Shown here: in pieces, positions 40,539 to 44,456 of the stretch
How the letters are laid out: each line of letters begins with the position of its first letter
How positions within the stretch are numbered: the first letter of the stretch is position 1
Assembly (NCBI GenBank): GCA_015068645.1
Contig: SVKD01000006.1
Location: 1-61,264, forward strand
Source: Oscillospiraceae bacterium
GTDB lineage: Bacteria; Bacillota; Clostridia; UMGS1840
DNA length: 61,264 nt
Direction of reading: 5' to 3'
The notes under the pieces: generated by a model
Database searches by the model: none
Seen by the model: only the letters and a program-made list of their open reading frames with translations
Told to the model about the DNA's origin: nothing
Translations under genes and position numbers: made by a program

Positions 40539-40624
40539 TCGTGCCCTCTTAGGCTTCAAGTCCCATCAGGAAATAAAAAAGCTATCCTTGCGGATAACTT
40601 TTTGTTTGGTGCAGCTGATGGGAC
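40539..40624 (+). repeat. Partial duplicate of the tRNA-Leu 3' end and its terminator (left copy)
   Basis: Nearly identical to 40732-40819. It carries the same terminator hairpin (TATCC/GGATA with A/T flanks) and the last 18 nt of the tRNA-Leu gene including the CCA end, but the rest of the tRNA is replaced by unrelated sequence. TTCAAGTCCCATCAG, the tRNA T-arm sequence, also occurs in inverted orientation at its left end. Confidence 0.8.
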
Positions 40625-40731: not shown

Positions 40732-40819
40732 TCGTGCCCTCTTAGGCTTCAAGTCCCATCAGGAAATAAAAAAGCTATCCTTACGGATAACTTTTTTCAT
40801 TTGGTGCAGCTGATGGGAC
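40732..40819 (+). repeat. Partial duplicate of the tRNA-Leu 3' end and its terminator (right, functional copy)
   Basis: Second copy of the 40539-40624 unit. This one is continuous with the intact tRNA-Leu(GAG) gene on the minus strand. Confidence 0.8.
40766..40800 (-). terminator. Terminator of tRNA-Leu(GAG)
   Basis: Directly downstream of the tRNA on the minus strand: AAAAAAG-TATCC arms around a short loop, symmetrical, ending in a T-run on the minus strand. Confidence 0.8.
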
Positions 40820-40888
40820 TTGAACCCATACGAGAGTGTTCTCACTACCCCCTCAAAGTAGCGCGTCTGCCGATTCCGCCACAGCTGC
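40802..40888 (-). tRNA. tRNA-Leu (anticodon GAG)
   Basis: Minus strand, 87 nt with encoded CCA. Acceptor arms GCAGCTG and CAGCTGC pair fully; the anticodon arm is CTACT / TTGAGGG / GGTAG, giving anticodon GAG (reads CUC and CUU). A long class II variable arm and the T arm ATGGG-TTCAAGT-CCCAT confirm a leucine tRNA. Confidence 0.95.
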
Positions 40889-41026: not shown

Positions 41027-41122
41027 TTCTTAGTGATAGAAAAATGAGGGTAGAATTCTGCCCATATGCAACGGCTGTTCCGGGGCAGAATAAAATATAA
41101 TGTAATAGAGGAGTTATTTAAC

Positions 41123-41605
41123 ATGTTTAACAATCCGTCCGTAGTTGTAACGTTAATCGTTCAAATTATTTTATCTTTAATTTTAATTGTTGCTGTTTTA
41201 TTCCAAAATAGCAATCAGGAAGGTCTGTCCGGTGCAATTGCAGGCGGTGCAGAAACCTTCTTTGGTAAGAATAAAGGCAGAACTGTTGATGCAAAATTGA
41301 AAAAACTGACTACCGTAGTTGCAATTTTATTCTTAATCAGCTCTGTTCTGTTAGGTCTCTTTGTTCAGAGAAGTATGCCGAAAGCAGAAACCACCATTCC
41401 TGCCGGTATGATGCAGCCCACCGGTGCTCCTGTTGATATTCAGCCTGTTGCTGATGGCACCGTTCCTGCTGATGCTGGAGTTGTTCCTTCTGAAACTGAG
41501 AACGTTGAAACTGAAACTGTTGAAACTGAAAACGTTGAAACCGAAACTGTTGAAACCGAAACAGTTGAAACCGAAAACGTTGAAGAAGGTACTACTGCTG
41601 AATAA
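41123..41605 (+). CDS. secG: Preprotein translocase subunit SecG with repetitive acidic tail
   Basis: 160 residues, about twice the usual 75-80. The N-terminal 80 residues are a normal SecG: first membrane segment (about 5-26), a cytoplasmic loop with QNSNQEGLSGAIAGGAETFFGKNKGR, and a second membrane segment (about 56-76). After it comes a proline/alanine-rich stretch and then five near-identical units of V-E-T-E-T/N, very acidic. SecG helps SecYE move preproteins. The tail lies outside the membrane if topology is standard. The ATG at 41123 follows GAGGAG. The tail units are encoded by a 15-bp tandem repeat. Confidence 0.92.
   Translation: MFNNPSVVVTLIVQIILSLILIVAVLFQNSNQEGLSGAIAGGAETFFGKNKGRTVDAKLKKLTTVVAILFLISSVLLGLFVQRSMPKAETTIPAGMMQPTGAPVDIQPVADGTVPADAGVVPSETENVETETVETENVETETVETETVETENVEEGTTAE
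41504..41578 (+). repeat. 15-bp tandem repeat inside secG
   Basis: Five copies of a 15-mer starting GTTGAAAC(T/C)GAAA, differing mainly at third codon positions, which encode the V-E-T-E-(T/N) units of the SecG tail. Length variation by slippage is likely. Confidence 0.9.
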
Positions 41606-41624
41606 TTTGTTTCATACGAATCGT

Positions 41625-41659
41625 AAGAACCGACTTTCTTTTGAAGGTCGGTTTTTTTG
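41625..41659 (+). terminator. Terminator of secG
   Basis: ACCGACTTTC pairs with GAAGGTCGGT (one G-U) around a T-rich loop and is followed by TTTTTTT. Confidence 0.88.
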
Positions 41660-41679
41660 TATTATTTGGCAGGAAATGG

Positions 41680-41708
41680 TTTACAAATTGAAGTGGATAT
41701 GTTATACT
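41680..41708 (+). promoter_or_regulatory. SigA-type promoter of WG-repeat gene 1
   Basis: TTTACA (41680-41685), 17 bp, TATACT (41703-41708). The leader contains a GATTGATTGGTATCAATTGATC stretch with dyad character, duplicated before gene 2. Confidence 0.82.
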
Positions 41709-41772
41709 GTGAAAGTAAGAATATGATTGATTGGTATCAATTGATCAGGTAAATCAAAAAGGAGGAAAAATG

Positions 41773-43011
41773 ATGAAACGATGTAAACGAATGATGGGGA
41801 TTTTCCTGGCGATGCTTTTTTTGATTGGTCAATTGGAAGTGATTTCAGGATATGCAAGTGATGGGGGGCGTTTAGAGAGGCCTTTTTATAATGGTCTGGC
41901 AGTTGTATGTCGCGACGGCAAATATGGTTATATCAATCAATCAGGAGACCTCGCAATTCCTCTTCAATTTGATTTTGCGTCTTGTTTTTCCGAAGGATTG
42001 GCTCGTGTCCAAGTTGGTGATAAATGGGGATATATCGGACGCGATGGTTATTACGTAGCGAAACCTCAGTTTGATTATGCATCTAATTTTTCCGAAGGAT
42101 TGGCAGTTGTCCGAGTGGGGGATAAATGGGGATTTATTGATAAAAGTGGCTATTATGTAGTGGAGCCTCAATTTGATTATGCATCTGATTTTTCCGAAGG
42201 ATTGGCAGTTGTCCAAGTGGGGGATAAATGGGGATATATGGGTCAGAATGGTTATTACGTAGCGAAACCTCAGTTTGATTATGCATATGATTTTTCCGAA
42301 GGATTAGCTGCCGTGGAAGTTAACGGTAAATGGGGTTATATCGGTCAAAATGGATATTATGTGGTTCTTCCTCAGTTTGATAGGGCATATGATTTTTCCG
42401 AAGGATTGGCTCCTGTTCGAGTTGGTGATAAATGGGGATATATTGGTCAGAATGGCTATTATGTAGTGAAGCCTCGATTTGATTATGCATGGGACTTTTT
42501 CGAAGGATTGGCTCGTGTTCGAGTTGGAAATAGGTACGGTTACATTAATACGAAGGGGAATTATGTGGCAAAACCTCAATTTGATTTTGCATGGGACTTT
42601 TCCGAAGGATTGGCAGTTGTTCAAGTTGGAAATAGGTATGGTTACATTAATACGAAGGGGGATTATGTAGCGAAACCTCAATTTGATTTTGCATCTGGTT
42701 TTTCCGAAGGATTGGCAGTTGTTCAAGTTGGGGATAAATGGGGATATATCAATCAGAACGGGTACTATATGTGGGAGCCTTATTGGGATGATGCAAGTTC
42801 TTTCCATTCGGGCTTAGCGGTAGTTCATCATGGTGATTTTAGTGCCGTTATCAATTCCGGCGGGCAATCTGTGTGCGAAGAACAAAGTGAATACGGTGAC
42901 CTTGATGTAACTCTGGGTGGACACATTTTGTACTATTATGATGGAAGCACATATCTGGTGGATCAGTACGGAAACATTTTGTCAGACGGATATGATATGT
43001 TTGGTTATTAA
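41773..43011 (+). CDS. Secreted WG-repeat protein 1
   Basis: 412 residues. A signal peptide (about 1-27) is followed by nine complete tandem WG repeats of exactly 34 residues, consensus GLA-V-VGDKWGYI-QNGYYV-PQFDYA-DFSE, and a degenerate tenth, then a distinct C-terminal segment ending DGYDMFGY. WG repeats form beta-rich solenoid-like arrays believed to mediate binding; no catalytic motif is seen. The DNA period is 102 bp. The start is one of two adjacent ATGs; the second (41773) lies 7 nt from GGAGG. A paralogue follows directly. Confidence 0.88.
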   Translation: MKRCKRMMGIFLAMLFLIGQLEVISGYASDGGRLERPFYNGLAVVCRDGKYGYINQSGDLAIPLQFDFASCFSEGLARVQVGDKWGYIGRDGYYVAKPQFDYASNFSEGLAVVRVGDKWGFIDKSGYYVVEPQFDYASDFSEGLAVVQVGDKWGYMGQNGYYVAKPQFDYAYDFSEGLAAVEVNGKWGYIGQNGYYVVLPQFDRAYDFSEGLAPVRVGDKWGYIGQNGYYVVKPRFDYAWDFFEGLARVRVGNRYGYINTKGNYVAKPQFDFAWDFSEGLAVVQVGNRYGYINTKGDYVAKPQFDFASGFSEGLAVVQVGDKWGYINQNGYYMWEPYWDDASSFHSGLAVVHHGDFSAVINSGGQSVCEEQSEYGDLDVTLGGHILYYYDGSTYLVDQYGNILSDGYDMFGY

Positions 43012-43167: not shown

Positions 43168-43229
43168 GTGAGAGTAAGAATATGATTGATTGGTATCAAT
43201 TGATCAGGTAAAAAAAAGGAGGAAATATG

Positions 43230-44456
43230 ATGAAACGATGTAAACGAATGATGGGAATTTTCCTGGCGATGCTTTTTGTTTTTATCCAGATGGGGGCTGT
43301 TGTCGGAAATGCAAATTGGCCTGCGTTCAGTGATGGGTTGGCTATTGTAAGCCAATATGACAGATATGGATATATCAATCAAAACGGAGATCGCAAACTA
43401 GCTCTTCGATTTGATTATGCATATGATTTTTCCGAAGGATTAGCTGCCGTGAAAGTTGACGACAAATGGGGTTACATCAATACTGCAGGAAACTATGTAG
43501 CGAAGCCTCAGTTTGATTGGGCATCTGATTTTTCTGAAGGATTAGCTGCCGTGGAAGTTAACGGTAAATGGGGTTATATCGGTCAGAATGGATATTATGT
43601 GGTTCCTCCTCAGTTTGATTGGGCATATGATTTTTCCGAAGGGTTAGCTACCGTGGAAGTTAACGGTAAATGCGGTTATATCGGTCAGAATGGATATTAT
43701 GTGGTTCTTCCTCAGTTTGATTGTGCTTATGCTTTTTCTGAGGGATTGGCACTTGTTGAAGTTGGCGGCAAATATGGTTATATTAATCAAAGCGGCTATT
43801 ATGAAGTGGAACCGTGGTTGGATGATGGATATGATTTTTCAGAGGGACTTGCGTGTGTGCAAGTTGGAGATAAATGGGGATATATGAGTCGGTATGGATA
43901 TTTTGAAGTTCATCCTCAGTTTGATTGGGCATATGATTTTTCCGGAGGATTAGCTGTCGTGGAAGTTAACGGTAAATGCGGTTATATCGGTCAAAATGGA
44001 TATTATGTGGTTCCTCCTCAGTTTGATTGGGCATCTGATTTTTCCGAAGGGTTGGCGCGTGTTGAAGTTGGAGGTAAATATGGTTATATTAATCAAAGCG
44101 GCTATTATGTAGCGGAACCCCAGTTTGACTATGCGTTGGATTTTTCTGATGGGCGAGCGGCTGTGATGGTGAACGATAAATGGGGCTACATTAATCAGCA
44201 TGGATACTATGTATGGGAACCTTATTGGGATTATGCTAGCGATTTCTATTCGGGATTAGCGGTAGTTTACCATGGCGATTTTAGCGGCGTTATCAATTCC
44301 GACGGAACATGTATCTGCGAAGAACAAAGTGAATACAGTGAATTTCTTGTAACTGATGATGGATATATTTTGTACTATCATGATGGATGGAAATATCTGG
44401 TGGATCGAAACGGAAACATTTTGTCAGGTGGCTATGATATGATTGGTGAGTATTGA
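43230..44456 (+). CDS. Secreted WG-repeat protein 2
   Basis: 408 residues, same plan as its neighbour: signal peptide, nine 34-residue WG repeats, a degenerate tenth and a C-terminal segment ending DMIGEY. The first 17 residues are identical to protein 1. Repeats 3, 4 and 7 share the EVNGK variant with repeat 5 of protein 1, at DNA level almost identical, suggesting exchange after duplication. Two repeats have Cys in place of the WG tryptophan (NGKCGYIG). It is probably surface-exposed or released; ligand unknown. Confidence 0.88.
   Translation: MKRCKRMMGIFLAMLFVFIQMGAVVGNANWPAFSDGLAIVSQYDRYGYINQNGDRKLALRFDYAYDFSEGLAAVKVDDKWGYINTAGNYVAKPQFDWASDFSEGLAAVEVNGKWGYIGQNGYYVVPPQFDWAYDFSEGLATVEVNGKCGYIGQNGYYVVLPQFDCAYAFSEGLALVEVGGKYGYINQSGYYEVEPWLDDGYDFSEGLACVQVGDKWGYMSRYGYFEVHPQFDWAYDFSGGLAVVEVNGKCGYIGQNGYYVVPPQFDWASDFSEGLARVEVGGKYGYINQSGYYVAEPQFDYALDFSDGRAAVMVNDKWGYINQHGYYVWEPYWDYASDFYSGLAVVYHGDFSGVINSDGTCICEEQSEYSEFLVTDDGYILYYHDGWKYLVDRNGNILSGGYDMIGEY

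Follow-up and report, generated by a model that had tools for sequence, protein, structure and literature searches.

It is near certain that the single-copy SecG encoded in the window (the whole stretch of 61,264 nucleotides analysed here) is a genuine SecG whose reading frame continues into an acidic tail, long and of low complexity. Most tailed SecGs that we collected end, like this one, in -AE, and our preferred reading, held tentatively and at somewhat less than even confidence, is that the tail is a disordered, negatively charged, flexible tether with a docking tip at the outer face of the membrane.

The limits proposed for the gene in an initial annotation, 41123–41605, were correct: the frame begins with ATG, ends with TAA and was verified to be open between them. 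An alternative ATG at 41066 would give a longer frame, but it is the less likely start because GAGGAG, a ribosome-binding-like sequence, lies at 41108–41113, 5' of the ATG at 41123. The normal SecG core and long acidic tail described in the same annotation were borne out by profile matches and charge counts. Pfam SecG (PF03840) matched residues 10–79 with 68.7 bits (cut-off 29.2) and NCBIfam secG (TIGR00810) matched residues 9–80 with 61.2 (cut-off 30.85). The best match among solved sequences was the SecG chain 3din_E from Thermotoga maritima. When the 1.76-Mb, 97%-complete genome was searched, this ORF was its sole SecG. Hydropathy peaks (residues 1–31 and 58–86) and the helices of an AlphaFold2 model built with 15 sequences (residues 5–32 and 52–84) both gave two membrane helices separated by a loop, as the SecG family requires; the model, with a mean confidence of only 59.7, is support rather than proof. 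The loop carries the conserved G-L-S-G ... GGAETFFGKNKGRT motif, and an alignment of 15 SecGs showed invariant columns in the loop.

Table 1. Features of the secG region, in window coordinates
Feature	Position	Strand	Remarks
tRNA-Leu(gag)	40802..40888	-	divergent from secG, which it adjoins in all genomes of the genus
secG CDS	41123..41605	+	160 aa plus stop; uninterrupted frame, ATG 41123, TAA 41603-41605
SecG core, residues 9-80	41147..41362	+	two membrane helices and connecting loop; Pfam/NCBIfam
C-terminal tail, residues 82-160	41366..41602	+	2 basic/19 acidic; predicted disordered, predicted extracytoplasmic
Six 15-bp units SETEN VETET VETEN VETET VETET VETEN	41489..41578	+	TRF, codon shuffles
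C-terminal tip TAE	41594..41602	+	-AE common to most tailed SecGs
Terminator-like hairpin	41625..41656	+	starts 20 bases past the secG stop

secG probably forms its own transcription unit, since a terminator-like hairpin follows it and the divergent tRNA-Leu(gag) gene precedes it. One such hairpin was found against 0.7 expected in shuffles, a weak signal alone that is supported by its position. The tRNA gene adjoins secG, divergently, in 5/5 genomes of the window's genus (the window; L032–L035; L289) and was not found beside secG in the other clostridial loci scanned; in E. coli K-12 tRNA-Leu(gag), encoded by leuU, also adjoins secG, but on the same strand. A stretch of about 85 bp is present twice, at 40540–40624 and 40733–40819 (terminator side and 3' end of the tRNA-Leu(gag) gene), as if the 3' end of the tRNA gene had been duplicated. 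On the other side of secG lie two adjoining, mutually similar genes on the forward strand (41731–43011 and 43227–44456); both have signal-peptide-like starts and carry 102-bp tandem repeats encoding WG-type units (DKWGYI...).

The tail of the window SecG adds about 80 residues in frame with the core, has a net charge of −17, and passes from a Pro/Ala/Val-rich stretch through a repeat array to the end VEEGTTAE. The initial annotation had counted five V-E-T-E-(T/N) units encoded by a 15-bp repeat; these five are present, and a degenerate SETEN unit in front of them adds a sixth. TRF reported 6.3 copies of 15 bp at 41491–41584 with 87% match and a best score of 144, a score reached by 0/1000 codon-shuffled tails (shuffle maximum 98). 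The array is old and imperfect. Fifteen base pairs being a multiple of three, slippage would alter the length of the arm and not its frame. The description of the tail as slippage-prone was not supported as a property within the species; the units have already diverged: neighbours differ at 1–5 of 15 bases, and near-identical units of the kind that mark a slippage-variable (contingency) gene were not found. Other possible sources of the tail were also considered. Its other matches in its own genome were antisense frames of the same DNA, with no further copies, and no Pfam or NCBIfam family other than SecG scored above cut-off in the protein; on these searches, an origin of the tail from another gene, by copying or as a domain, was rejected.

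AlphaFold2 placed no secondary structure after residue 84 and gave block-mean pLDDT values of 41–48 from residue 91 on, from which the tail appears to be disordered. The loop between the helices has six basic and three acidic residues, against the strongly acidic balance of the tail (Table 1). SecG is described in PMC8082313 as having two transmembrane domains with a cytosolic loop between them. The charge pattern fits the topology of the family, in which both ends would face outwards, and from the two together we infer that the tail is extracytoplasmic, as the initial annotation had supposed.

A frameshift or an assembly error might have fused an unrelated frame to secG, and an overlapping frame of 100 aa at 41424–41726 lends this idea a candidate. 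The tail nevertheless lies in a single unbroken frame, the SecGs of 4/4 congeners, from other assemblies, are tailed as well, and related families show purifying selection in frame (below). For the group, these three observations refute an artefact, and for the window itself we consider one wildly improbable. Both ways in which the initial annotation might have failed, a frameshift and orthologues limited to the core, are answered by the same data.

Tails were present in 5/5 genomes of the window's genus. The tails of the four congeners are 47–78 residues long and range in charge from −6 to −23, all acidic and all (4/4) different in sequence from that of the window. Even the nearest congener, G002, has a tail that cannot be aligned with the window's (78 vs 81 residues, charge −23 vs −17) and that contains different repeats. 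Length variability, which had also been claimed, thus holds between species, with a range of 47–81 residues in the genus. Outside the genus, tails were found in 0/4 genomes of sister family f2 of the same order. We then used a sample of the class comprising 391 genomes, 372 of them with SecG, from which the best 150 of 372 matches were listed, so that frequencies are not unbiased; listed matches with frames of more than 110 residues were opened, and five listed frames of 104–108 residues were left out. Among these best 150 of 372, tails were present in 27 opened SecGs, all from families f1, f6, f18, f30 and f68. Family by family, tails were found in 32/32 examined f18 SecGs (36 of 38 f18 genomes have SecG), in 7/7 f30 genomes with SecG (two further f30 genomes gave no SecG match), in 4/4 f6 genomes (family search), in the single f68 SecG examined (1/1) and in 2/2 genomes of f15, which was searched separately from the class sample. 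In six clostridial families, therefore, no member that we examined lacked a tail. Family f18 is the Monoglobus family and, judging by identical tails in L061 and L078, includes Ructibacterium gallinarum (DSM 107454; L078). In other classes of Bacillota, by contrast, tails were seen in 0/39 examined SecGs, which extend 1–5 residues past the core; there were 135 SecG matches from these classes, and those not examined in this way were judged from short frames alone. Across Bacillota long SecG tails are rare, but in several clostridial families they are fixed, and the label 'unusual' given to the window tail is right for Bacillota at large but not within those families.

An rpoB tree was built from fragments of 35 genomes (38 were searched), chosen for presence or absence of a tail. 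It required at least five changes in tail presence, with f1, f18+f68, f6, f30 and f15 as separate groups; support for its deep branches is weak, and gains of tails are not distinguishable from losses. The same gene provided an observation unrelated to SecG. The RNA polymerase domain match in RpoB of f1 (L281, L284–L286) spans 1329 bases, as compared with 1158 in most relatives; the longer span was present in 4/5 genomes of the window's genus, the fifth being partial, which suggests a lineage-specific RpoB insertion of about 57 residues in this genus.

Properties of the tails were compared across 45 distinct tails of at least 20 residues, drawn from 133 distinct SecGs in 173 loci. Net charge had a median of −19 and was negative in 44/45 distinct tails, and no cysteine occurred among 3619 tail residues. 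Across all the tails collected, L010 of f6 was neutral, L308 of f30 was positive (+5) and f15 tails were Thr/Pro-rich, deviations that weigh against an acidic tether. DNA tandem arrays were detected in 26/45 tails with differing unit lengths, all listed periods being multiples of three, and the repeat units differ by lineage. In close-species pairs from f18, f30 and f6, Ka/Ks of the aligned part of the tail was 0.06–0.25 (10/10 pairs), compared with 0–0.11 for the core in the same pairs. The tails of these three families are therefore translated in frame and constrained, though less so than the core. The feature is both commoner and under tighter constraint than the initial annotation had supposed. 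Ka/Ks values within the window's genus (four pairs, 0.1–1.0) are unreliable, as tails were unalignable or Ks was saturated, and in several other pairs Ks was higher in the tail than in the core, which points to shuffled repeats or to alignment noise.

These data bear on the possibility that the tails are a near-neutral by-product, in which extension is tolerated at the outer end of SecG and tandem duplication adds low-complexity sequence without selection. Repeats are indeed common and length is variable, and two papers describe SecG as dispensable in several species (PMC8082313, PMC11841065). However, unselected sequence is hard to reconcile with the tail Ka/Ks values, with the absence of any untailed SecG among the members examined in the tailed families, with a shared -AE tip, or with the absence of tails from the 39 non-clostridial SecGs examined, where drift should act too. 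We regard a by-product as improbable. It is also possible that the tails form an acidic brush that has no partner and supplies bulk negative charge at the exit, sequence and tip being free to change provided that composition holds. A brush would keep emerging chains soluble, attract cations or basic mature regions, or repel the anionic wall. The retention of composition and charge despite turnover of sequence, as between the window and G002, and the negative charge of nearly all tails are what a brush predicts, and we consider it unlikely rather than improbable, the weight against it coming from the two features described next.

The first is the C-terminal tip. Tails ended in -AE in 39/45 distinct cases in the first set and in 44/53 overall, counts in which related tails are not independent. 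This ending was found in only 3/436 other ORFs of at least 200 residues from the same loci, in 5/323 and 6/368 genes sampled from two tailed genomes (11/691 together; the 6/368 includes secG), and in 2/18 polar acidic C-terminal tails of proteins other than SecG; of the dipeptides inside the SecG tails, 4.3% are AE. In the alignment of 15 SecGs, all chosen as tailed, A159 was invariant and E160 nearly so, while the intervening tails could not be aligned. The tip is encoded by varying codons (GCN; GAA/GAG), and any selection would therefore act on the peptide. We had set beforehand an expectation that at least 70% of unseen members would end in -AE; the result was lower, 5/8, yet far above background, and 7/8 of the same tails were negative. 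These eight new tails exclude L301 and L317, earlier tails with a shifted boundary, and with both included 7/10 end in -AE. At the level of clades, 4/6 end in -AE (P ~5e-5), a value that assumes independent clades and was computed post hoc, and that serves as a guide only. A constant end after a variable spacer was thus the general pattern; exceptions amounted to 9/53, and the f15 and f68 tails lack -AE, which counts against a docking tip. A protein of 674 aa encoded elsewhere in the window's own genome (L236, 10223–12248, minus strand) also has an acidic Thr/Glu/Ala tail ending in -AE. This protein, a putative IspH–ribosomal protein S1 fusion, is presumably cytosolic, and the ending is therefore not strictly a SecG feature. 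Prevalence of -AE in 44/53 tails is not predicted by a brush.

The second feature is a block, DENGN-(L/M)-VD-x-x-GNI-(V/L)-M-(S/T)-AE-(D/Q), which is located near the membrane in most f18 tails (loci including L006, L007 and L078–L094) and in some f30 tails, and is absent from the tail of the window SecG. In 6/8 genomes searched, it occurred once per genome and in the SecG frame only. AlphaFold2 modelled the block with short strands and a helix (block-mean pLDDT 65–79; whole-model mean 65.1), and it is predicted to be a small folded unit. Its conservation in f18 is likewise not predicted by a brush.

Our preference for a tether that docks by its tip has two grounds: a brush needs no fixed ending, and the outer-face foldase complex PpiD–YfgM contacts E. 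coli SecG (PMC9643414). In such a tether, the tail would sit outside the membrane, next to the exit of SecY, and its repeat-built middle would be a spacer in which charge and reach outweigh exact sequence. The tip, -[T/P/A]AE, would dock an outer-face partner; in the Monoglobus family the juxtamembrane DENGN...GNI microdomain might dock as well. The docked partner would most plausibly be a foldase or chaperone acting outside the cytoplasm, or else an auxiliary part of the translocon, and docking would allow emerging polypeptides to be met at the translocon exit. More tentatively still, we propose that an outer-face SecG arm, made of a fast-changing acidic spacer and a selected -AE tip (with the additional block in Monoglobus relatives), recruits an exit-side factor, and that arms sharing this ending originated, or were remade, several times from different repeats.

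Candidate partners were sought in 38 genomes among PPIC-type foldases and SecD/SecF, and none was singled out. PPIC-type foldases were present in 35/38 genomes, tailed and untailed alike, and SecD/SecF in 34/38, tailed or not; neither tracked with tails, and neither explains which lineages have them. A role for the tail as a substitute for SecDF was rejected, since the 34 genomes with SecD/SecF include all five of the window's genus.

The charge and length of the tails could also reflect a topology lock, a charged tail being unable to re-cross the membrane and SecG being fixed in orientation and barred from an inversion cycle. Tails of 50–125 acidic residues would make inversion costly, and a SecG–PhoA fusion reportedly served as a fixed-topology tool. 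SecA-coupled inversion has been reported for E. coli SecG (PMC9437254). A lock accounts for length and charge, however, but leaves the tip and the conserved block unexplained. Moreover, untailed relatives manage without a tail, and clostridial SecG is not known to invert. We judge a lock to be less probable even than a by-product.

SecG is a small and usually dispensable subunit of the translocon, and its role, including flipping in the membrane, is still argued. The window SecG shares with bacterial SecG (PF03840/TIGR00810) the core, two helices, the conserved loop and presence as a single copy, but whereas an ordinary Bacillota SecG ends a few residues past the second helix, the window SecG continues for about 80 more. 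SecGs of Bacteroidota are also extended. In SecG of E. coli K-12 (110 aa), too, the second helix is followed by a polar tail, ~39 residues long, and SecG tails as such are therefore not new; that tail is Pro/Ala/Thr/Lys-rich with as many basic as acidic residues, lacks a repeat array and has DIPN as its last residues. The acidic clostridial tail is a variant of an already known subunit. In general plan it is like the C-terminal tails of SSB and FtsZ, in which a low-complexity spacer of variable length is followed by a short conserved peptide tip. The tips of SSB and FtsZ are longer, cytosolic and have known partners, whereas that of SecG comprises two to three residues and is predicted to lie outside.

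A review describes the SecE and SecG proteins of Bacillus and Staphylococcus as shorter than those of Gram-negative bacteria (PMC12445088), and long tails in Clostridia were for that reason unexpected; among the open-access papers listed by literature searches, most of them judged from their listing, there was none on acidic SecG tails. With so many natural SecGs carrying 50–125 acidic residues past the second helix, an arm that should not cross the membrane, inversion could be tested directly. A functional precedent is again from E. coli, where crosslinks join SecG to the periplasmic foldase PpiD in company with YfgM (PMC9643414), making SecG already a docking subunit in that organism. Contact with an outer-face foldase is the kind of job that we propose for the clostridial tail, but the same paper maps the contact on E. 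coli SecG to the cytosolic loop (M52) and not to the C-terminal tail. If the -AE tip does bind a partner, Gram-positive translocons would own an exit-side docking arm that is missing from textbook models of the Bacillus and Staphylococcus translocon.
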